Shown here one piece after another: positions 5,720-34,916 of a stretch of 38,521 bases of DNA (the first letter of the stretch is position 1; the number at the start of each line of letters is the position of its first letter). Source of the stretch: a virus. Both the position numbers and the translations under genes were made by a program. The stretch covers positions 1 through 38,521 of the IMG/VR virus record IMGVR_UViG_3300020445_000017. The stretch is one strand, 5' to 3'. Below the pieces are notes generated by a model. That model did not search any database. It saw only the letters and a program-made list of their open reading frames with translations, and was not told the DNA's origin.

Positions 5720-5925
5720 TTAGTGTTGTCTTCTAACCAATTAATTAGTCCTTGCTCTAAAAAGTAAGGAGTATTTCCTATACGAATATATGGGACTATG
5801 AATGTGCCGTGCCGAATTTTGCGTCTTAATGTATCTTGTTCAAAACCGCGCGGTATTCCACGATCTTCCATCCAATCTCTTACCTTGGCTATGTGAACGT
5901 ATTGATTAGAAAGGGCTGTTGTCAT
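5716..5925 (-). CDS. Helix-turn-helix (excisionase/AlpA-like) protein
   Basis: This 69-residue protein has an N-terminal helix (HIAKVRDWMEDRG) and a basic turn-helix (TLRRKIRHGTFIV). A beta-hairpin (YIRIGNTPYFLEQ) and a final helix GLINWLEDN follow. This order fits small winged-helix MerR/AlpA/excisionase-type DNA-binding proteins. In such families the protein bends DNA at recombination sites or regulates a promoter. No integrase gene is in the window, so excision is not supported and regulation is as likely. It overlaps the primase gene by 20 bases and the micro-ORF by an ATGA. Confidence 0.5.
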   Translation of the reverse strand: MTTALSNQYVHIAKVRDWMEDRGIPRGFEQDTLRRKIRHGTFIVPYIRIGNTPYFLEQGLINWLEDNTK

Positions 5926-7447
5926 AGTTTACCTTGCTTGATTTAATTTCTAATGTTTTGAATGCCTTAATAATAATTACAGCTCTGGAGCTAGTTCTTA
6001 TCTGCATTCTTTTCTCATCTACATATATATCTAAAGTAGATAATAAGTTTGAAGTATTAGTTTTACCTTCTACCCAACCACTTCTTTTAAGGTGATCAGT
6101 AAAATCTTTAGCTAAAAAATAAGTCAACTTTTTCTCTTCGTCTGTGTAGGCGACGTGATTTGAAATATCATCCAAGTTTTTCCCTGTCTGAATATTCCTT
6201 GTGAATTCAAATAGATGCTCCTTTAACTGATAACTAGAAGACATAGATTCTATTGCTTTTATTTCTCTTATGACACCAGGAGCAGAGAGAGGAGTAACGT
6301 TTTCAGATATCCATTTCTCCATCGTAGGCATCTTAGCTATTGCAATGTTAGCTTGTTTAAATACTTCTAGTTTAAATAATCTAGGTTCAAGAAGTTGTTC
6401 ACCTGTTAGTTTTATTCTCTTATCATCTACGTTTAAAAAATACTGTGGAGGATCAGAACATATTTTAGTTAAGTCTTTAAACTCTGGTAGTTGTATATCT
6501 GTTTCACCATAACCTACTCCAAACGGACACTTACTACATTTACGGGAATCACATACGGGTTGTAGTGGGGCCTCTTTACATTTGTACTTATAATCTTTTT
6601 TTGCTACAGACTTCTGCAAAGCAACAACCTCTTGAGATGGTAACGGAGGAACAATATATTTTGTATTATCTGCATCCATCATGTCTTGCCAGTTATCTGG
6701 ATTTGCTTTCTTTCTATAGACACCAATACTATATAAAGCATTGTTCCTAGAGCCCTGAGTAAACCCTTCCTTTGCTAATTTATTTAAACAAGGAGGACCA
6801 TCTGGAAATGCCTCCTCTTCTTTTGCTTTAGGTTTTATTTTTATAGATTCAATTTGTTCTTTTGTCTGTGCCCATTCATCATACATTGAATAGAAATCCT
6901 CTAAGGTAGCAGACTCACCACCCGATTTATGTGCATAACGAAGACTTGTATCTCCACCATGATAAGGAAGATTTAAAAAACTACCCTTGTCTCCCTGATC
7001 CATTAATAATTCTGTTTGTTTAGGAAAAACTTCTACTCCTCCATACCCAAGATCTTCTGCAATCTCTTTTAATTTAGACTGCATGAGTACAGCAGGTATA
7101 AATTCTTTGGCAAATAAAAATAGATGTGCGCCGCCTGACTTAGATCTAAAAGTTATTAAAGGGTATCCTCTGCCTTTTATCTCTCTCATAAGAGACTGGT
7201 GATTTAATGTGTCGTATACATCTACATCAATACAGCCCCACTTACACATATTCTCTTCATTAATAGGCACCACACCTAAGGAAGGTTCTTTGCCTTCTAA
7301 GTGTTCTGTCCACATCTTATCTGTAACAGGTTCACTAGGCATTCTACATGTAGCTTCTTGTTTCTCTCCTGCAGCCGCAGGAGCACCTATGGTCATTACT
7401 CCATGTACACTATTGTTACCTTCAAAAATTTCCTTAAACTTTTTCAC
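5906..7447 (-). CDS. Archaeo-eukaryotic-type primase (PrimPol-like)
   Basis: This 513-residue protein has an AEP-type active site: D-x-D in CIDVDVY (Asp74, Asp76), SKSGGAH with His108, EVFPKQ (139-144) and NLPY (159-162). This matches TOTE/PrimPol-like primases that synthesise short primers. A four-cysteine cluster with spacing C-x8-C-x4-C-x2-C (Cys290, 299, 304, 307) follows, then a C-terminal region of about 200 residues that looks helical or winged-helix. No helicase domain is fused; the two helicases nearby could fill that role. The start is GTG at 7447, making a GTGA overlap with the zinc-finger gene. It should prime the polymerase encoded downstream. Confidence 0.85.
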   Translation of the reverse strand: MKKFKEIFEGNNSVHGVMTIGAPAAAGEKQEATCRMPSEPVTDKMWTEHLEGKEPSLGVVPINEENMCKWGCIDVDVYDTLNHQSLMREIKGRGYPLITFRSKSGGAHLFLFAKEFIPAVLMQSKLKEIAEDLGYGGVEVFPKQTELLMDQGDKGSFLNLPYHGGDTSLRYAHKSGGESATLEDFYSMYDEWAQTKEQIESIKIKPKAKEEEAFPDGPPCLNKLAKEGFTQGSRNNALYSIGVYRKKANPDNWQDMMDADNTKYIVPPLPSQEVVALQKSVAKKDYKYKCKEAPLQPVCDSRKCSKCPFGVGYGETDIQLPEFKDLTKICSDPPQYFLNVDDKRIKLTGEQLLEPRLFKLEVFKQANIAIAKMPTMEKWISENVTPLSAPGVIREIKAIESMSSSYQLKEHLFEFTRNIQTGKNLDDISNHVAYTDEEKKLTYFLAKDFTDHLKRSGWVEGKTNTSNLLSTLDIYVDEKRMQIRTSSRAVIIIKAFKTLEIKSSKVNYDNSPF

Positions 7448-9509: not shown

Positions 9510-10955
9510 ATGATAAAAGATTACAGGTTTAAAACTAAGCCTTATGACCATCAAATCAAAGCCTTAGAGAAGTCTTGGGCCCAGAAAACATATGCTTTGT
9601 TTATGGAAATGGGTACAGGAAAATCAAAAGTTTTAGTTGACAACATTGCTATGTTATATGACAGAGGCGCGATCCGCGGTGCGCTAATCGTGGCTCCTAA
9701 GGGAGTGTACAAAAACTGGGATCAAATAGAGTTCCCTACACACATGCCCGAACACGTTGAATATACTAAGGTTTTGTGGGAAGCGAGTTTAACAAAGAAA
9801 AAACAGTACGAGCTTGATACTTTATTTGATGACAAAGGTGATCTTAAGATATTGATAATGAACGTAGAAGCATTTTCTACAGAGAAAGGACTGGACTTTG
9901 CACATTCTTTCCTTAACATATTCGTTGGAAGAGCTTTGATAGGAATTGATGAATCTACGACGATCAAGAATCCGACAGCAAAACGCACAAAAAATATTTT
10001 AAAAATAGGGAATCTAGCGAAGTATCGTAGAATTTTAACCGGCTCTCCAGTTACAAAGTCGCCCCTTGACTTATACAGCCAGTGTAAGTTCTTGGATCCT
10101 TTCCATCTAAACCAACAGTCTTACTACTCGTTTCGTACTAGGTATGCCAATATGATTGAAAGAAATTTCGGTGGACGTAGAGTACAATTAGTAGGTAGCT
10201 ATAGAAATCTCGGAGAACTGACCACGCTACTAGATAAATTTTCTTATCGTGTACTTAAAGAAGAATGCTTAGATCTTCCAGAGAAAGTATTCACTAAAAG
10301 ACATGTTCAATTAACAGCAGAGCAGAAGAAAGTTTATAATCAGTTAAGACAAACAGCTCTAGCTATGCTTGATGATAAGATGATGTCAACTATGAATGTG
10401 ATTACTCAGATGATGAGGCTCCATCAAGTTACTTGCGGTCATTTTAAAGCTGACGATGACTCAGTTACTTTATTAGATAACAACAGAGTTGATACTTTAT
10501 TAGACTTGCTTGAAGAAACTGATGGTAAAGTTATCATCTGGGCAAATTACAGGCAGGACATAAAAAATATAGTGGATACTCTGAAAAAAAGGCACGGAGA
10601 TGACTCCACAGTCGAATATCACGGTGGGGTGGACCCTACCCTCCGCCAGGAGAACATTGCTCTATTTCAAGAGAAAAACAGCCCTACGCGCTATTTCGTA
10701 GGAAACACCCAAACCGGAGGGTATGGAATTACCCTAACGGCAGCGAACACTGTAATTTATTATTCTAACAATTATGATCTAGAAAAAAGATTACAATCTG
10801 AGGACCGAGCACATCGTATCGGCCAGACTGGCAGTGTTACCTATGTTGACTTGATAGCAGAAGAGACTATAGATGAGAAAATAGTTAAAGCATTAAGGAA
10901 AAAAATAGATATCGCTAATGAAATTATGGGTGAAGAACTTAAAGATTGGATCTAA
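9510..10955 (+). CDS. SNF2-like superfamily 2 DNA helicase/translocase
   Basis: This 481-residue protein is the only gene on the plus strand. It has a Q-like motif YDHQIKALEK (12-21), Walker A MGTGKSK (34-40), a Walker B variant DEST (147-150), motif III TGSP (177-180) and a SNF2-type motif VI QSEDRAHRIGQ (429-439). It lacks chromatin-targeting domains and is short, like other phage SNF2-family enzymes. It probably translocates on duplex DNA with ATP and helps replication, recombination or displacement of host proteins. It is controlled by its own strong promoter, separate from the other replication genes. Its stop overlaps the endolysin stop on the other strand. Confidence 0.93.
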   Translation: MIKDYRFKTKPYDHQIKALEKSWAQKTYALFMEMGTGKSKVLVDNIAMLYDRGAIRGALIVAPKGVYKNWDQIEFPTHMPEHVEYTKVLWEASLTKKKQYELDTLFDDKGDLKILIMNVEAFSTEKGLDFAHSFLNIFVGRALIGIDESTTIKNPTAKRTKNILKIGNLAKYRRILTGSPVTKSPLDLYSQCKFLDPFHLNQQSYYSFRTRYANMIERNFGGRRVQLVGSYRNLGELTTLLDKFSYRVLKEECLDLPEKVFTKRHVQLTAEQKKVYNQLRQTALAMLDDKMMSTMNVITQMMRLHQVTCGHFKADDDSVTLLDNNRVDTLLDLLEETDGKVIIWANYRQDIKNIVDTLKKRHGDDSTVEYHGGVDPTLRQENIALFQEKNSPTRYFVGNTQTGGYGITLTAANTVIYYSNNYDLEKRLQSEDRAHRIGQTGSVTYVDLIAEETIDEKIVKALRKKIDIANEIMGEELKDWI

Positions 10956-24882: not shown

Positions 24883-24988
24883 CTTTTTTCTCCTCTAATT
24901 CTTCCGGTGTTGGCATCGTTAATTTACTCATTTGGTTTTCAGCCAACAGTTGATCTAATAAGTGAGCCTTTAATTCTTCATCAGTCAT
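24872..24988 (-). CDS. 38-residue coupled ORF
   Basis: The frame from ATG 24988 (TAATG overlap with the tail-protein stop) runs 38 codons to a TAA at 24872, overlapping the gp10-like gene by 17 bases. The product MTDEELKAHLLDQLLAEN is acidic and helical, ending LEEKKDAQ. Its codons for LEEK contain the GAGGAG ribosome site of the next gene, so its translation probably sets initiation there. It could be a short assembly protein or simply a leader ORF. Confidence 0.5.
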   Translation of the reverse strand: MTDEELKAHLLDQLLAENQMSKLTMPTPEELEEKKDAQ

Positions 24989-26703
24989 TATCCACCATCC
25001 GTCCCTAAGTTTCTTGTACCATAGTAATCAGACATTTTTAGGTTATATTTACCCATGTTCACTCCTACGTTGTCCTGTTCTGCTGTTGTTTGCGCAGTAG
25101 CATAAGTAATAGTAGGAGTAAAATTAGTTGACCCTATAGCTCCTCCAGCAGTGTAATAAGGAGTTACACCATTATTTTCAAACGAAGCAGCCCCTCCTGT
25201 AGGAGTTTTAAATTGATAGGTAGTGCTATTACTTTTTATTCGCAGTGTTCCTGTAGTAGGTTCAAAAGCACTTAGACTGTACCAATAAACTCTAGCTGAT
25301 GCACCTAAATTAATTCCTGGATATGTGGAGCTAGTATTGGATCCTCCCGCAATATTTAAAAGTTCCAAAAATCTACTTATTACAGTTGACCTGTTTACTG
25401 AGCCAGTACTATAATAACCTATACTTATATTTCCTTGATCAGCGCCAGATTGATTATCTCTTCCGATAAATGTTAATGGATAAAAGTTTTGTTCATATTT
25501 TTCTGTAAAATTGCCCGAGCTCCAATTACTACCTAGGGTATGGGTGGATAGACTATTACTACTACTATCTAGGTACTGCATACTAAAACTATTATACGTA
25601 GAGCTATTACTATTATACCAAGTAGTATAGTAAGCATAATCTGTTCCTGTATTATTGTTTATTGTACAACTTAAAGACGCTCCACTACCTCCCCAGGAAG
25701 TAGTAATACCACTAACACCTGACATTCCACTATAGAAAGTTGTTGGGTTTGCTGGGCCGTTGCGGCAAACATTTGCTACTCCTGTCCCAGTATTCGATTG
25801 AGCCCCAGAACCATTAATATAATTAGTCCCTGATCCACCATAAGTATCCCAGCCAAAATACCCACCACTTCCGGATGTTGAAAAGCCTTGAGCATAGCCG
25901 GTCCCTGTCCACGATATAGGGACAAACCACCCCACATAAGGATAAACAGCTGTCCCCGAACTTCGTGCATCGGGCAACGCATCACAAGTTGTGTAAATAG
26001 TTATGGAATCTCCGTTCTTTAAAATACCAGGTTTTACTGTTGAATTAGTATTATAATTAGCAGTAGATTTAGTATCTTCACTTCCTCCAGCTAGTGCAGA
26101 AGGGAAAGCATAATCAACATAGGAAACATTTGTGGTAACTAATCTGTTAGTATCTACAAGGGACATAATATACACACTAACATTCTGTCCACTGTTTACT
26201 TGCTGAGTGTTTGTGTTTATATAAAATTTTTTTGTAGGAGCCACTCCTATTGTAAAATCTTCACTGCCCCCCGCAGCTGTATCTATATCAATGTGTATGA
26301 AAGTGTGAGAACCTTGATGATAGTTACTGCTTGCATTATAGTTACTTCCATTATTTAGTACCCCGGAAGAAACCAAGTCAGAGCCGGAAGTATTTTTTGT
26401 GGTTGCTATATAAACAGGAACAGTTACAGAATTATCTAACGCTAGCGAAAGTCTTATTTTACCAGGAAAGAAAAAAAATGTTGTATCAGTGGATGGGGCG
26501 GCCCCGTCAATTATTAACTGACTTCCGTTCCAAGTGACATAAGATATGAATTGTTGCCTGCACGCTCCCCCAGAATCGGTTCCTGCTTGATCTGGAAATC
26601 TTCTTATGTAATCACCCAGTTTAATATTACTGGCGCCCCCAGATGAATTAAATTCATTCATGAGATTTGAAAATGTTATTGCGCCGGATGCTGTAACTGT
26701 CAT
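24988..26703 (-). CDS. Tail fibre/adhesin-like protein, Ser/Thr/Asn/Gly-rich
   Basis: This 571-residue protein is extremely rich in Ser, Thr, Asn, Gly and Tyr, with almost no charged stretches, typical of extracellular beta-structured fibres. Its start MTVTASGAITFSNLMNEF with SGG and KLGDYIRR is a tail-protein N-terminal block common in marine phages. The C-terminus ends YNLKMSDYYGTRNLGTDGG. No chaperone domain is present, and folding may depend on other proteins. It most likely forms part of the receptor-binding apparatus. The start overlaps the previous S74 fibre gene as ATGA. Four consecutive Phe (TTFFFFPGK, near residue 75) are notable. Confidence 0.65.
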   Translation of the reverse strand: MTVTASGAITFSNLMNEFNSSGGASNIKLGDYIRRFPDQAGTDSGGACRQQFISYVTWNGSQLIIDGAAPSTDTTFFFFPGKIRLSLALDNSVTVPVYIATTKNTSGSDLVSSGVLNNGSNYNASSNYHQGSHTFIHIDIDTAAGGSEDFTIGVAPTKKFYINTNTQQVNSGQNVSVYIMSLVDTNRLVTTNVSYVDYAFPSALAGGSEDTKSTANYNTNSTVKPGILKNGDSITIYTTCDALPDARSSGTAVYPYVGWFVPISWTGTGYAQGFSTSGSGGYFGWDTYGGSGTNYINGSGAQSNTGTGVANVCRNGPANPTTFYSGMSGVSGITTSWGGSGASLSCTINNNTGTDYAYYTTWYNSNSSTYNSFSMQYLDSSSNSLSTHTLGSNWSSGNFTEKYEQNFYPLTFIGRDNQSGADQGNISIGYYSTGSVNRSTVISRFLELLNIAGGSNTSSTYPGINLGASARVYWYSLSAFEPTTGTLRIKSNSTTYQFKTPTGGAASFENNGVTPYYTAGGAIGSTNFTPTITYATAQTTAEQDNVGVNMGKYNLKMSDYYGTRNLGTDGG

Positions 26704-29307: not shown

Positions 29308-30081
29308 TTAGTGCTCCGTCCAATTACTGTCTGTTGGTACTGTTACGCTGCTCCAGGTACTACTATTACCTGAACTATCAACGTTTGTCCATGTCCCACT
29401 AGTTGTAGCATTTATATTACTCCATGTCGAGCCCGAACCTGAATCAATATTCACCCAAGAAGGGCTGGTAGGAGTGGTAACATCGTGCCAACCAGTAAAG
29501 ACAGAGCCTGGAAGAGCTTCGAGAGTTATTTCAATACCGGTTGGAATAATAGTTTGATTAATATGTATAGTAGGTGAACCAAGAACAAGGGTTCCAGATA
29601 AGCCTGTTATTGCAGGTAAAGCATTACCTTGAGGAGTTATGGTTGCTGGAGTTAAAGTCGCAGAAACACCTGTTGGTATATGTAAAGACGTACCAGTAAC
29701 TGTAACTGATCCAGGAGTAGCACTTAATAAGAAACCAGTGACATCTTGAACTTGTTGGGCATCTATGGTTACTGAACCAAGAGTATTTGTTAATGAAAAA
29801 CCCGTTAAAGTTTCTGTAGAATTTATGTGTAAATTATCGTTAGGAACAAAACCTATACTTGCTGTTATCTGTTGATCAAGATTAGCTGGTATAATATTTC
29901 CTATTTCTTGACCCAAGCTTACGGTCATACCAAGACCTATTGGATGAGGGAAATTAGAGTCTCCAACTATCTCACTCGGAGATCCCGCAGCTAAAGTTAA
30001 GGGTAAACCACTAACTGCTACAGCTACAATATTCTGTGATGAAAAGGGGGTTTCTGCAAAAGCGGCAGCTGCTATTGTCAT
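29308..30081 (-). CDS. Repeat-built tail fibre protein (22- and 11-residue repeats)
   Basis: This 257-residue protein is built almost entirely from repeats. The unit TG-x-(hydrophobic)-x-x-T-x-G-S-V/P-T recurs with its Thr at residues 93, 115, 137, 159 and 181, exactly 22 apart. Weaker copies lie earlier, near 25, 49 and 73. The tail then carries Trp at 198, 209, 220, 231, 243 and 254, an 11- to 12-residue repeat (TWSNI, TWTNVD, TWSSV). Such regularity suggests a beta-helix or beta-spiral fibre shaft with an aromatic tip. It is coupled by TAATG to the collagen-like fibre gene. I do not know a named family. Confidence 0.65.
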   Translation of the reverse strand: MTIAAAAFAETPFSSQNIVAVAVSGLPLTLAAGSPSEIVGDSNFPHPIGLGMTVSLGQEIGNIIPANLDQQITASIGFVPNDNLHINSTETLTGFSLTNTLGSVTIDAQQVQDVTGFLLSATPGSVTVTGTSLHIPTGVSATLTPATITPQGNALPAITGLSGTLVLGSPTIHINQTIIPTGIEITLEALPGSVFTGWHDVTTPTSPSWVNIDSGSGSTWSNINATTSGTWTNVDSSGNSSTWSSVTVPTDSNWTEH

Positions 30082-31217
30082 TAGTTATCCTTTTTGCATT
30101 TACACTTACATTCTTTTTTATCTAGCTCTTTAATGGCTTCAATTAATAAAGGGATAATTCTATCATACCAAACTGATTTATACTCAGAATTGAATGGTGC
30201 TTCTGTTACAGCTTCTGGAAGAACTTCATCTATCTCATCAGCATTAATACCAACTTGTAATCTTTCATTATCAAATCCAAAAGACTTAGCTAATTTATTT
30301 TCTTTATAATAGTAACCACTAATCTTATTTAGCTTCTCTAAAGCAGATTCAATCTTACCTTCAAAATCTTTTAGACGTGGATCCGAATAATACGCTGTGA
30401 TGTTGCCCGTCGCAGTAATGGTCCCCGCGGCAATATTGCCTCCTGAGTTAAAAGTACCTGTTGGCCCCGTAGGTCCTGGAGGTCCTGTTGGCCCCGTAGG
30501 TCCTGTTGGCCCCGTAGGTCCTGTACCCCCACTTGGCCCCGTAGGTCCAGGAGGTCCATCTGGTCCTGTTGGCCCTGTTGGTCCTGTACCCCCACTTGGC
30601 CCTGGAGAACCTGCTGGCCCGGCTGGCCCTTGTAAAGATAAATTAGTTACAGTTGATTTTTCCCAAGCGCCTGCATCAACATCATAATAAGGAACTAAAT
30701 CAGAAGCGACAGCATCAGTCCCTGTTGGAAATCCAGTTATAGCTGCTCCTACATTAGTTGAATCTGTTACATCTGCTGATGCTTCAATATTATCTAGCTT
30801 TGAGCCATCAGAAGCAACGTCTCGTCCATCCACATTTCCAGAAATTGTTATTGCTCCAGTTATATTTAAAGAAGGTGTTGTAACACTTCCGCTATCATTT
30901 ATTACAATAGCCTTAGAAGCTGGTAGAGCACAGAATACATCTTTAGTACCTGCACTAAAATTAACAGCACTATCACTATTAGAGCTTGAAATAATTGTAG
31001 AGCGAGAAAGAGTATCAGGAGTAGCATCTGTTACTGTTCCTATACCAACTTCAAACTCTGTGCTGCCTGGAAGTACAATACAATAATAAGTAGTGTTGGA
31101 ATTACCAACACCTGTAACAAACGTCTCAAAACCTGTTACCGCTCCTGCTAGGTTAATAGTACCTGTCCCGGTAGTCGCTGTGGTTTCTTTGACTCTATCG
31201 TTAATTACGAAAGCCAT
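30081..31217 (-). CDS. Tail fibre with collagen-like shaft and S74 chaperone
   Basis: This 378-residue protein has three regions. Residues 1-100 are a fibre N-terminal block ([18 protein letters not shown], then [10 protein letters not shown] and KDVFCALPA). Residues about 197-255 are Gly-X-Y triplets, mostly GPT and GPP, forming a collagen-like triple-helix shaft. Residues about 277-378 are an S74 chaperone: SDPRLK holds the Ser278/Lys283 dyad, with [16 protein letters not shown] and a final amphipathic helix. The last residues [10 protein letters not shown] are an odd Cys/Lys tail. The start ATG 31217 has TAGGAG upstream. It should be a trimeric fibre matured by self-cleavage before Ser278. 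Confidence 0.88.
30453..30629. repeat. Imperfect 9/18-bp tandem repeat coding the collagen-like shaft
   Basis: Units of the form GGTCCTGTTGGCCCCGTA (plus strand) repeat imperfectly through the stretch coding for Gly-X-Y triplets. The block is far richer in G and C than its surroundings, and identical neighbouring units would favour slippage that lengthens or shortens the fibre in steps of three or six residues without breaking the frame. Confidence 0.8.
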
Positions 31218-31686: not shown

Positions 31687-32385
31687 TTATGGATTCGCAC
31701 TAGGAATTGGAATTCTAATTGCTCCATCCCTGTACTCATCTCTACGTTTTTTACCCATTTGTTCTTGTGCAAGCGCTGTAACAGACTCTCTATAAGACTG
31801 TTCATACACTTGTTGATCTTGTGGAGCTTTCAAGAACTTAAAAGCTTCACATAAAGCTGCGTACAAAAGTACTCTAGGGCAGTTTACACTTACCCAAGTC
31901 TCAGTATTACCACTGGATAATCCTGTAGGTAACTTTGTAAACCCTACCTCAAATTTATATATTGCATTTGGAGTTGGCGCAAGTACCAATGTGCCTTCAT
32001 CCCATTGTGCATAGTATTTTGGCATACTAGCAGAACCAGTCTCTGGTGTATCATAGTACTCATTCATAAAATCTGAGTCTACTCTTACCAGCTTATGCCT
32101 GACTTTAGTGCCAGAATCCAAGTAAATAGTAACATATCTAATAGTAGCATAATCAGTCAATTTAGGTGTAGTAGCTGCGGCTGTCTGTCCTGGTAAAGGA
32201 ACCCATCTGTTATTAGCTGCAGTTGCTCCATTCATGACATCTTTATAACAATCTAAATCTATATCTTTAAATATTCTAAGTTCAGCGTGTTCAATAAAGT
32301 CATTAACAATAGTATCAGTTAAAACCTGATTGTCAGTTTCTGTGTAATCTCTAATCTGTGTTACTAATTCTGCGTATGTTGTCAT
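31687..32385 (-). CDS. SU10-type head-tail adaptor protein
   Basis: This 232-residue protein starts TYAELVTQIRDYTETDNQVL and continues IVNDFIEHAELRIFKDIDLD, the helical opening of phage adaptor proteins of the SU10/T7 gp11 kind. A beta-rich middle (AQWDEGTLVLAPTPNAIYKFEV) and a helical end (YEQSYRESVTALAQEQ) follow. Such adaptors form the ring below the portal. It is coupled to the preceding gene by an ATGA overlap, and its neighbour at 33418-34164 is a second adaptor-like protein, so the short tail has two stacked rings, as in P22-like virions. Confidence 0.75.
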   Translation of the reverse strand: MTTYAELVTQIRDYTETDNQVLTDTIVNDFIEHAELRIFKDIDLDCYKDVMNGATAANNRWVPLPGQTAAATTPKLTDYATIRYVTIYLDSGTKVRHKLVRVDSDFMNEYYDTPETGSASMPKYYAQWDEGTLVLAPTPNAIYKFEVGFTKLPTGLSSGNTETWVSVNCPRVLLYAALCEAFKFLKAPQDQQVYEQSYRESVTALAQEQMGKKRRDEYRDGAIRIPIPSANP

Positions 32386-33425
32386 GATAATAATGTAATC
32401 GGTCCTACTGACGCGTTACCTCCTCCAAATTTTCTTATACCACCACTTTCAAAATATTTAAACCCCTTGCCTCCAGCTCCTTCAAATTGATCTAGATAAG
32501 AAGTTCTGTCATCAATTAACATTTTATTTGCTCCTCCATAAGAGCTTTTGTCATACTGAGGTGCATAATCTATATCGCCGGGAGTTGATCCCGATGCAGG
32601 TGCACGACCAGAACCAGATCCAGGTGTACCAAAATGAGTAGTAACCCAAGCAAGTTTTTGAGCATTACCTGAAACAGAACCTGTAGTTGTTGTTAACACG
32701 TTCCAAGTATTATTCTTTGACATAACTAAATCTATTAAGGCATTTGCTTCAGCTCTTTTATCTAGGTTTTGCCACCAACTAGATGGTGCTGTAGCTATTG
32801 CAGATAATTCATCTGCAGGTGTCATATTATACCAATCACCATCAAAAGGTCTTCCTGAGCTTACGTTTACCCATTCAGCTACTCTTTGGTAATATTCTGT
32901 AAGAACCCCATCCATGTCAACATAAACAGTTGTAGTTCCAGGATTACAATTTGCTTCTAACCACTCTTCTATAATATCGTTAGGTGTAAATGTAAAAGTA
33001 TCTGCATCTACTTTAGTAATGATGTGTCCAGCTGCAGCATTTATATCATGATCAACTATTCTAGAAACTTGTGGATAATCTGGCCACTTAGATGTTGATT
33101 CTCTAAATCTAACGCGGTCCCCGGTGCTATAACCGTGGCCCGGGTCTTTAACACTAACTGTTATAGAATCAATAGCGCCCGCACTCAGTGCATCTTGTCC
33201 TAACAAATGTGCTACTGGTGGTTCTGTTCTAGCAGGTCTTGCATGTTGTAATCCCTGTGCGTCGCCTCTAAATTTTCTTGGAACTAATTGGGGGTGTTTT
33301 GATTCAAACTCGCTTTTATGAACCCATGCTCCATTCCATTCTCTAACCATTTCTCTGTATGGGAACTGCATACCACTTCTATCCGAGATAGCTTTTGCAT
33401 ATTTACCTGTAGAAAAATTAGACAT
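32382..33425 (-). CDS. Head-tail protein fused to a HAD phosphatase-like domain
   Basis: This 347-residue protein has two unlike parts. Residues 1-75 (GKYAKAISDRSGMQFPYREM, then HPQLVPRKFRGDAQGLQ) are a block known from virion neck regions of marine phages, followed by a beta module with HGYSTGDRVRF (97-107). Residues 165-326 are a HAD hydrolase resembling 5'(3')-deoxyribonucleotidases. Motif I is DMDG with Asp170/Asp172, motif II TTT near 245, motif III Lys257 and motif IV IDDR with Asp305/Asp306, then GGKGFKYFE. A Gly/Ser-rich loop (266-298) interrupts it. All catalytic residues are present, so phosphatase activity on nucleotides is plausible. It overlaps its neighbours by 8 and 4 bases within the connector cluster. 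Confidence 0.75.
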   Translation of the reverse strand: MSNFSTGKYAKAISDRSGMQFPYREMVREWNGAWVHKSEFESKHPQLVPRKFRGDAQGLQHARPARTEPPVAHLLGQDALSAGAIDSITVSVKDPGHGYSTGDRVRFRESTSKWPDYPQVSRIVDHDINAAAGHIITKVDADTFTFTPNDIIEEWLEANCNPGTTTVYVDMDGVLTEYYQRVAEWVNVSSGRPFDGDWYNMTPADELSAIATAPSSWWQNLDKRAEANALIDLVMSKNNTWNVLTTTTGSVSGNAQKLAWVTTHFGTPGSGSGRAPASGSTPGDIDYAPQYDKSSYGGANKMLIDDRTSYLDQFEGAGGKGFKYFESGGIRKFGGGNASVGPITLLS

Positions 33426-34164
33426 TTGGGTAATAAGCCTGTGGAGTTATATAAGTACTGGTAGATGAACCATCTTCAACAAGAGCTCTATTTAATTCAT
33501 CTTCATACAATAATTTCATTTGCTGAACTAACTCAGGCTTTTCTTTTTGAGAAAGATAAAAAGCTAATCCTGAAACCATACAAGGTATAAATCTATAAGG
33601 GGCGTCTGAAGTATTAGTATATCCACCTACATCTTGAATTCTTTTTACATAGTAAGCACCCACATAATTACCAGCCGCTGTAGCATCTGGAGTTGGGTAA
33701 AGAGTCATTACAGTTCTGTCTATAAATCTTTGTACGTAATATTGTGTTGGTGTAGATTTAGTTAATTTATTAGAGAGTCCAGAATAAGTTGATCTATTTA
33801 TCTTAGTAAGAGCAGAATCGTTTTGAGAAGTAGTATTATAACCTGTTCTATAAACAGCTTCTAAAATATCGTCAACGCCATAAATACCATTAGTTGGTAC
33901 AGTGGTTACACTAGTGCCATCTCCTACTGCTCTATAAAAAATATATTCTGCTTGACCTTCAACAAGATCAATACTGGTGTTACCCATTTCCCAATAATGT
34001 AAACCACGATTAGCCCATTCTTGGAACATTATGTTTAATGAACGTCTTGCTGTCTTTAATTGATAACCACCTACAGCATGAATACCTATACGATCATAGG
34101 CTTCCTGTATAATGTCATCAATTGCAAAACCACTTTCGAATGTAGTTGTTCCGGACGTTGCCAT
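33418..34164 (-). CDS. P22 gp4-like head-tail adaptor (DNA stabilisation) protein
   Basis: This 248-residue protein opens with IDDIIQEAYDRIGIHAVGG and KTARRSLNIMFQEWANRG, the helical start of gp4-type tail accessory proteins. The beta-rich WEMGNTSIDLVEGQAEYIF and TVMTLYPTPDAT follow, with a helical end (VQQMKLLYEDELNRAL). In P22, gp4 forms the first ring under the portal and closes the head after packaging. AGGAGG lies before the ATG at 34164. It precedes the HAD-fused gene, the SU10-type adaptor and the gp10-like gene, a consistent short-tail module. Confidence 0.8.
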   Translation of the reverse strand: MATSGTTTFESGFAIDDIIQEAYDRIGIHAVGGYQLKTARRSLNIMFQEWANRGLHYWEMGNTSIDLVEGQAEYIFYRAVGDGTSVTTVPTNGIYGVDDILEAVYRTGYNTTSQNDSALTKINRSTYSGLSNKLTKSTPTQYYVQRFIDRTVMTLYPTPDATAAGNYVGAYYVKRIQDVGGYTNTSDAPYRFIPCMVSGLAFYLSQKEKPELVQQMKLLYEDELNRALVEDGSSTSTYITPQAYYPNV

Positions 34165-34174
34165 AAACTACCTC

Positions 34175-34456
34175 CTAATTGTACGTAATAGTTACGCCTA
34201 CTGTTCCAGAAAGCACTGCATGACAACCTGTTTTAAATCTAATACCACTACCTGGAACGTAAACTGAAAGTCCTTCTGTTCCAAATAAGAAAGTATGTGA
34301 AGTACCGGTTGCCGAAGTTGCATCATACAAAATAAGTGATCCACTAGCGTGTCCTTTTGCCTGTATAGAAGTTACTCTGCAAGATCCTGTGTATAAAGTC
34401 GCCGTAGATGCGGTATGCGCTGTCTTTTGATCTGATGTAAAAGAACTACCACCCAT
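34175..34456 (-). CDS. Small beta-rich virion protein
   Basis: This 93-residue protein is rich in Ser, Thr and Gly, with alternating strands (SCRVTSIQAKG, GSLILYDATS, HAVLSGTVGVTITYN). It has the look of a compact beta-barrel decoration or connector protein. It lies between a second small beta-rich protein and the gp4-like adaptor, under a perfect AGGAGG site, and is separated from its upstream neighbour by a stable hairpin. No family name can be given with confidence. Confidence 0.6.
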   Translation of the reverse strand: MGGSSFTSDQKTAHTASTATLYTGSCRVTSIQAKGHASGSLILYDATSATGTSHTFLFGTEGLSVYVPGSGIRFKTGCHAVLSGTVGVTITYN

Positions 34457-34505: not shown

Positions 34506-34916
34506 TTACGATTCTTTAGCCCAAACACCTTGAGCTTCAACTACTGTCCAATGGGCAGTAGAATTTAAAGCTGCTATTTTCACATAGTCCCCAACTTTTG
34601 ATGTTGCTTTTGTATTAATAAGGTCTTTGTCATCTGTTAAACCTCCTACATACAAAATACCATCACTAGCATTAGGACTAATAGTAAAGGTGTTATGTCC
34701 GTCTTCACCAGTATTTACAAATGTAAATACGTTTCCTACAGCAATAGCTGGTAGAGTGAAAACTACACCATCAGTCTTAGATGTGAGTGTTTTTCCTGAG
34801 TCAGTAGTTGCTACGACAGTGTAATTAGATTCTTTTGCTTCGATATTGTATCCAGTTACACCAGCTTCGTTTTTCTTACCAACTAAAACAGGTCCTCTAA
34901 ATGTTGTTGTTGCCAT
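34506..34916 (-). CDS. Beta-rich virion (capsid decoration-like) protein
   Basis: This 136-residue protein has TVVATTDSGKTLTSKTDGVV, FTLPAIAVGNVFTFVNTG and a strand-rich end with HWTVVEAQGVWAKES. The FTLP-A-x-VG-x-x-FTFVN block is a beta fold met in phage surface and fibre proteins. It has its own promoter and structured leader directly after the capsid terminator, and an AGGAGG site, which suggests a need for copy numbers set apart from the capsid protein. Decoration of the capsid is the likeliest role; this is inferred from position and composition. Confidence 0.6.
   Translation of the reverse strand: MATTTFRGPVLVGKKNEAGVTGYNIEAKESNYTVVATTDSGKTLTSKTDGVVFTLPAIAVGNVFTFVNTGEDGHNTFTISPNASDGILYVGGLTDDKDLINTKATSKVGDYVKIAALNSTAHWTVVEAQGVWAKES

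Follow-up and report, generated by a model that had tools for sequence, protein, structure and literature searches.

A deoxyribonucleotidase-type HAD domain exchanged as a cassette within a neck-operon protein of marine phages

Results

A fused gene between two adaptor genes

We analysed an IMG/VR virus record (IMGVR_UViG_3300020445_000017) over its whole length of 38.5 kb (38,521 nucleotides; possibly a fragment), in the following called the window. Its relatives are the pelagiphages HTVC023P and HTVC027P as well as phage 023Pt_psg01, with which it shares 68–70% identity in the capsid and 50–62% in the DNA polymerase. The gene of interest encodes a protein of 347 amino acids, P0001. The reading frame lies exactly where the first-pass annotation had put it, and its strand, which had been left unstated, is the minus strand. 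It is part of a tightly packed operon and sits between two adaptor genes:

30081..31217, minus strand: Collagen / Peptidase_S74 protein of tail-fibre type; its counterpart, matched by gene order, is exchanged in the pair L056/L098 (see below)
31687..32385, minus strand: downstream SU10-type adaptor (PF24175, E=2.3e-25), overlapping the P0001 gene by 4 bases
32382..33425, minus strand: P0001, fused neck-operon protein of 347 amino acids (reading frame and translation), intact in at least 69 distinct forms
33418..34164, minus strand: upstream adaptor-like gene (phrog_12985; PHROG match and homologue annotations), overlapping the P0001 gene by 8 bases

The upstream product belongs to phrog_12985, and its homologues go under the names adaptor, tail adaptor or portal-adaptor. 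In SU10, the adaptor has been described as a dodecamer that links the portal to the nozzle and also keeps the long fibres in place (PMC9509320). The placement of P0001 together with the adaptor genes is kept in synteny, which is the gene context expected of a neck protein. Judged from this context, P0001 would be part of the virion. It is more likely that the two adaptor-like neighbours are the core connectors and that P0001 is rather a neck accessory.

Elsewhere in the window, a gene at 5906–7447 encodes a primase-like protein that matches PF22548 (E=6e-11), the archaeo-eukaryotic primase domain found in TOTE conflict systems; it adjoins DNA polymerase A and a UvrD-type helicase. A SNF2-type helicase gene (9510–10955, plus strand) is the only long plus-strand reading frame among minus-strand genes. 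Between portal-like and tail-fibre genes lies a reading frame of 571 amino acids (24988–26703) for which no significant PHROG match was obtained (best E=0.075).

Domain layout and predicted fold

PHROGs divides P0001 into two parts: residues 1–147 match phrog_28581, which is annotated as of unknown function, while residues 164–324 match phrog_2643 (5'-3' deoxyribonucleotidase) with E=3e-12. Together with structure prediction and alignments this provides the following layout:

33231..33425, minus strand: residues 1–65, conserved N-terminal block (start of phrog_28581; PHROG and alignments with relatives)
32985..33212, minus strand: residues 72–147, putative FCCH-like beta barrel (AlphaFold2 strands and Foldseek)
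32451..32936, minus strand: residues 164–325, 5'(3')-deoxyribonucleotidase-type HAD domain, which is the part inserted and exchanged (PHROG, fold and profiles)
32385..32441, minus strand: residues 329–347, C-terminal tail common to relatives without HAD (GGG..SxGPxTLxP in both groups)

Structure prediction of the full protein, proposed earlier as a check, gave a confident HAD fold. The AlphaFold2 model reached a mean pLDDT of 86 with an alignment of 100 sequences that included stand-alone enzymes, while 15 close sequences alone gave a pLDDT of 34. Averaged over blocks of ten residues, the HAD part scored 74–96 and mostly above 88. The best PDB match of the model in Foldseek was the deoxyribonucleotidase-like protein 3bwv (E=3e-5); the human mitochondrial deoxyribonucleotidase appeared lower in the list. 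About 80 residues of the model resembled phage endosialidase modules and the FCCH part of the ubiquitin-activating enzyme (matches including 4hiz, 3gvk and 2v31, with weak E-values of about 0.005–0.02). From the predicted strands and the sequence pattern this match would fall onto residues 72–147. In the viral library, fold matches of 310–350 amino acids were also seen (A0A6J5L8C0, A0A6J5LP47 and A0A1Y0T0R7), which could be other fusions.

The N-terminal block of P0001 contains SDRSG, while distant relatives have CDxCG at this place. Two such relatives are L331:5639-5914 and L004:2995-3399, where CDxCG replaces the SDRSG of the marine proteins, and the Planktothrix phage Pag-Yong1 encodes a 91 amino acid protein at the same place with CDRCG. 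The block is thus perhaps a former zinc ribbon: CDxCG in L331 and L004 suggests a ribbon whose metal ligands were lost within the marine lineage.

A divergent relative of the NT5C family

Motifs I (DxD), II (S/T), III (K) and IV (DD) follow each other in this order on a Rossmann-like fold, as is characteristic for the HAD superfamily. Within it, NT5C is the closest family by homology and fold (phrog_2643, hhalign and 3bwv). A profile-profile comparison (hhalign) of the P0001 domain with NT5C-type phage enzymes, i.e. stand-alone enzymes that pass the Pfam NT5C cut-off, gave a probability of 98.6% and E=1.4e-15. With the Pfam NT5C profile (PF06941) itself, P0001 obtained E=0.07 and 13.4 bits, which is below the gathering cut-off of 24.8. 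Because the domain scores below this cut-off, yet is closest to NT5C in homology and predicted fold, we would place it as a divergent NT5C relative and not as a member of the Pfam family. Since searching PDB sequences with either the HAD profile or the N-terminal block returned chance matches only, the link to human mdN was made via a phage enzyme that itself matches human mdN. The HAD assignment is far beyond chance, and the earlier suggestion of a 5'(3')-deoxyribonucleotidase-like enzyme was upheld by phrog_2643, hhalign and AlphaFold2/Foldseek alike. Scans of bacterial and archaeal genomes returned no relative of the HAD domain or of whole P0001, such that no host or prophage source was found.

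A conserved active site under purifying selection

The active-site motifs were located as follows:

32910..32918, minus strand: motif I, D170-M-D172; Asp invariant in 69/69 fused proteins listed and 20/20 stand-alone enzymes
32688..32693, minus strand: motif II, T245-T246; S or T in 69/69 fused proteins listed
32655..32657, minus strand: K257, Lys of the KxxW helix; invariant in 69/69 fused proteins listed and 20/20 stand-alone enzymes
32547..32549, minus strand: K293, likely the motif III Lys; invariant in 69/69 fused proteins listed
32505..32513, minus strand: motif IV, D305-D306-R307; Asp pair invariant in fused and stand-alone proteins

Across all 69 distinct fused proteins listed, D170, D172, G173, S/T245, K257, W260, K293, D305, D306 and R307 were unchanged. 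Except for K293, these residues also align with those of the stand-alone enzymes, in which position 307 is K or R and a Lys is found a few residues earlier than K293, in a loop. Motif III was placed by aligning P0001 with phage and human deoxyribonucleotidases. The order DMDG, Thr motif, Lys257 and IDDR, as read by the first-pass annotation, stands, but the motif III Lys appears better matched by K293, located before the last core strand, with K257 being the Lys of the KxxW helix. The equivalents of the two lysines are presumably K143 and K165 of human mdN (human numbering).

The median pairwise dN/dS was about 0.20 for the HAD domain and 0.23 for the N-terminal part. The domain is therefore under purifying selection and not a relic. 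This agrees with the earlier view that it is not a merely structural relic: a loss of the catalytic Asp residues in most homologues, which would have spoken against that view, was not seen, and the full active site was kept in every listed fused protein. Judged from these residues, the active site is catalytically complete and the domain apparently a working phosphatase.

One polypeptide

P0001 is one polypeptide that combines a HAD domain with a protein of the structural region. A start within the gene, which had been named as the observation that would separate the two parts, was sought in 73 distinct genes. None had an ATG in the 25 codons that precede the HAD domain or among the first codons of the domain itself. 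In the window gene, residues 60 to 175 offer only two candidate starts, namely TTG at residue 74 and, within DMDG, ATG at residue 171. In absence of any suitable start codon we rejected a separate HAD protein. The N-terminal part had a constant length of 480 or 483 bases. Every IMG/VR relative recovered from the HAD branch of P0001 had the fused architecture, where it should be considered that the scan patterns favour this branch. An artefact, in which two separate proteins, a faulty assembly or a decaying gene were taken for one gene, is extremely improbable and refuted by the data, since the same architecture recurs in at least 69 distinct sequences from many independent assemblies with constant spacing and no internal start.

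Insertion of the HAD domain into a variable slot

A search with the N-terminal block matched at least 600 stretches. Whether relatives carry this part without the HAD domain had been posed as a question earlier; among the loci read, at least 77 distinct proteins do. Their base form of about 164 amino acids has the barrel directly continuous with the GGG..SxGPxTLxP tail. A second form of about 265–290 amino acids carries a different insert, and some short forms exist too. Many HAD-free relatives keep the same C-terminal tail as P0001. Since they share both block and tail, the HAD domain is an insertion between the FCCH-like barrel and the C-terminal tail, and the joint alignment also places it there. 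The first-pass annotation had described a HAD domain joined to a connector block. It was correct regarding the single polypeptide, but the domain is inserted rather than appended, in a slot that is variable and subject to exchange.

At the position of the neck gene, HAD was absent in HTVC023P, HTVC027P, CRP-901/902, 023Pt_psg01 and DSL-LC04, and the phage collection examined contained no cultured carrier. Six records without the fusion gave no match to phrog_2643 elsewhere in their sequence. In a tree built on residues 1–146, all 56 representative carriers fell into one clade without non-carriers (support 0.95), while a tree on the first 71 residues placed 8 non-carriers inside the carrier clade (support 0.78). 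The single clade in the tree on residues 1–146 is consistent with a single gain of the HAD domain.

Exchange of the HAD domain between phages

The HAD domain behaves as a swap cassette between phages. L045 and L013 share identical DNA for about 2.7 kb, ending at the HAD boundary; from there on identity is about 45–90%. For L056 and L098 the sequence is 99% identical upstream, 96% in the N-terminal part and 98% downstream, while the HAD domain is 70% identical; of the other genes compared in this pair, a similarly low value is reached only by the one in the tail-fibre position (71%). We then considered 45 phage pairs in which all flanks have at least 90% identity; these pairs share members and are not independent events. 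In 15 of them the HAD domain was at most 80% identical and at least 10 points below the lowest flank. The N-terminal part never exhibited such a drop in the same pairs. A module swap is also seen without HAD: L029 and L030 have flanks of 95–99% identity and outer neck-gene parts of 190 and 278 amino acids.

Two small genes of the window between capsid and adaptor (34175–34456 and 34506–34916) have counterparts in L126, L138 and L156. These small genes have about 48–73% DNA identity where neighbouring genes have 91–99%. They may encode decoration proteins of the capsid that are being exchanged. Because small upstream genes also vary in some pairs, exchange is not unique to the HAD domain.

Discussion

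We propose that P0001 is an accessory neck protein with an interchangeable outer module, here an active, outward-facing HAD phosphatase that was gained once and is exchanged as a cassette. To this reading as a whole we assign a probability of roughly one half. The conserved N-terminal block and the barrel would anchor P0001 at the adaptor complex. The interchangeable outer module would follow, which in the carrier lineage is the apparently intact NT5C-type HAD domain. Facing outwards on the neck, it would dephosphorylate a nucleotide or some other phosphomonoester that the phage encounters outside its particle; the most likely site is the host envelope, at the time of adsorption. A role at the envelope is suggested because the HAD domain varies together with the tail-fibre position and not with the adaptors, and an outward, host-surface role because the domain is missing from relatives that have the same neck. 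Exchange alone is no proof of a host-facing role, since small upstream genes are exchanged in some pairs as well. That the phosphatase sits on the neck, is swapped like a receptor-binding part and acts on envelope phosphates or nucleotides at adsorption is put forward tentatively. The earlier suggestions of an action on DNA ends or on host nucleotides after entry found no direct support in the analysis. To our knowledge the NT5C enzymes studied biochemically to date have nucleotides inside the cell as substrates, and we know of no envelope substrate.

Dtm of phage PBS1, a characterised NT5C enzyme and the closest biochemical guide, hydrolyses dTMP and dUMP (PMC12697855), so that by analogy nucleotides would be the default substrate class of the P0001 domain. 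This would fit at least as well a nucleotidase, e.g. for dTMP or dUMP, that works in the cytoplasm of the infected cell ahead of assembly or alongside it, with the neck part as mere carrier. Stand-alone NT5C genes are in addition common in marine T4-like phages. However, the P0001 gene belongs to a structural operon for which, given a general early/middle/late scheme, late expression would be expected in the related HTVC027P-like phages, no separate HAD gene of its branch occurred among the relatives recovered, and six carrier records, possibly fragments, contained no thymidylate synthase. We consider a cytoplasmic nucleotidase unlikely. The same six records leave a role in base modification with thymidylate synthase unsupported.

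An enzyme for assembly or packaging would also suit the neck position between adaptor genes: at the portal vertex it would dephosphorylate DNA ends or a protein of the virion, in the way baculovirus 38K acts on p6.9. The baculovirus HAD phosphatase 38K sits at the base of the capsid, and nucleocapsid assembly requires it (PMC11654684). An assembly need is disfavoured because the HAD domain is absent from close relatives whose adaptors and capsid are the same, and such an enzyme would not be expected to swap as an independent cassette beside constant adaptors, which makes this explanation rather improbable. We regard with similar doubt a binding or structural module whose catalytic residues hold Mg2+ and a phosphorylated glycan or nucleotide without need for turnover. 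Relatives do have beta modules that look non-enzymatic in the same slot, and necks of lactococcal 936 phages carry carbohydrate-binding modules (PMC6669499). What speaks against mere binding is that none of the 69 fused proteins listed has lost any catalytic residue, the second Asp of motif I included, although identity of the HAD domain falls to about 50%.

With the NT5C enzymes (human mdN, S. epidermidis 3bwv, PBS1 Dtm and those of T4-like marine phages) P0001 shares fold, motif order and catalytic residues. It differs from them by its score below the Pfam cut-off, its fusion into a neck-operon protein and an extended loop before K293. The HAD-free neck proteins of HTVC023P, HTVC027P, 023Pt_psg01 and the roseophages CRP-901/CRP-902 have the same gene order and N-terminal block, and the capsids of these phages are 58–70% identical to that of the P0001 phage, but their outer parts are different and of variable length. 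In baculovirus 38K/BCP, too, a virion protein combines a HAD phosphatase with a part that anchors it to the capsid (PMC11654684). The likeness is one of arrangement only: 38K is related to CTD phosphatases, belongs to an unrelated virus with an unrelated anchor and has the protein p6.9 as substrate, whereas the best fold matches of P0001 are deoxyribonucleotidases. The neck passage structures of lactococcal 936 phages (PMC6669499) have a neck protein with added outer modules as we propose for P0001, but these belong to different phages and are binding modules and not enzymes.

In the open-access literature we found no paper on a virion HAD phosphatase in phages. No tailed-phage precedent was thus found, and 38K would be the nearest analogue. 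HAD family and neck operon are both known; their fusion is new with respect to the literature searched. Probably, the particle carries a kind of enzyme that is not known from the particles of tailed phages. Not every match to 'deoxyribonucleotidase' in viral metagenomic data has to be a metabolic gene. If located on the particle, P0001 would bring phosphatases into the small set of enzymes that phage virions carry, and neck decoration could be tied to host interaction in a way open to testing.
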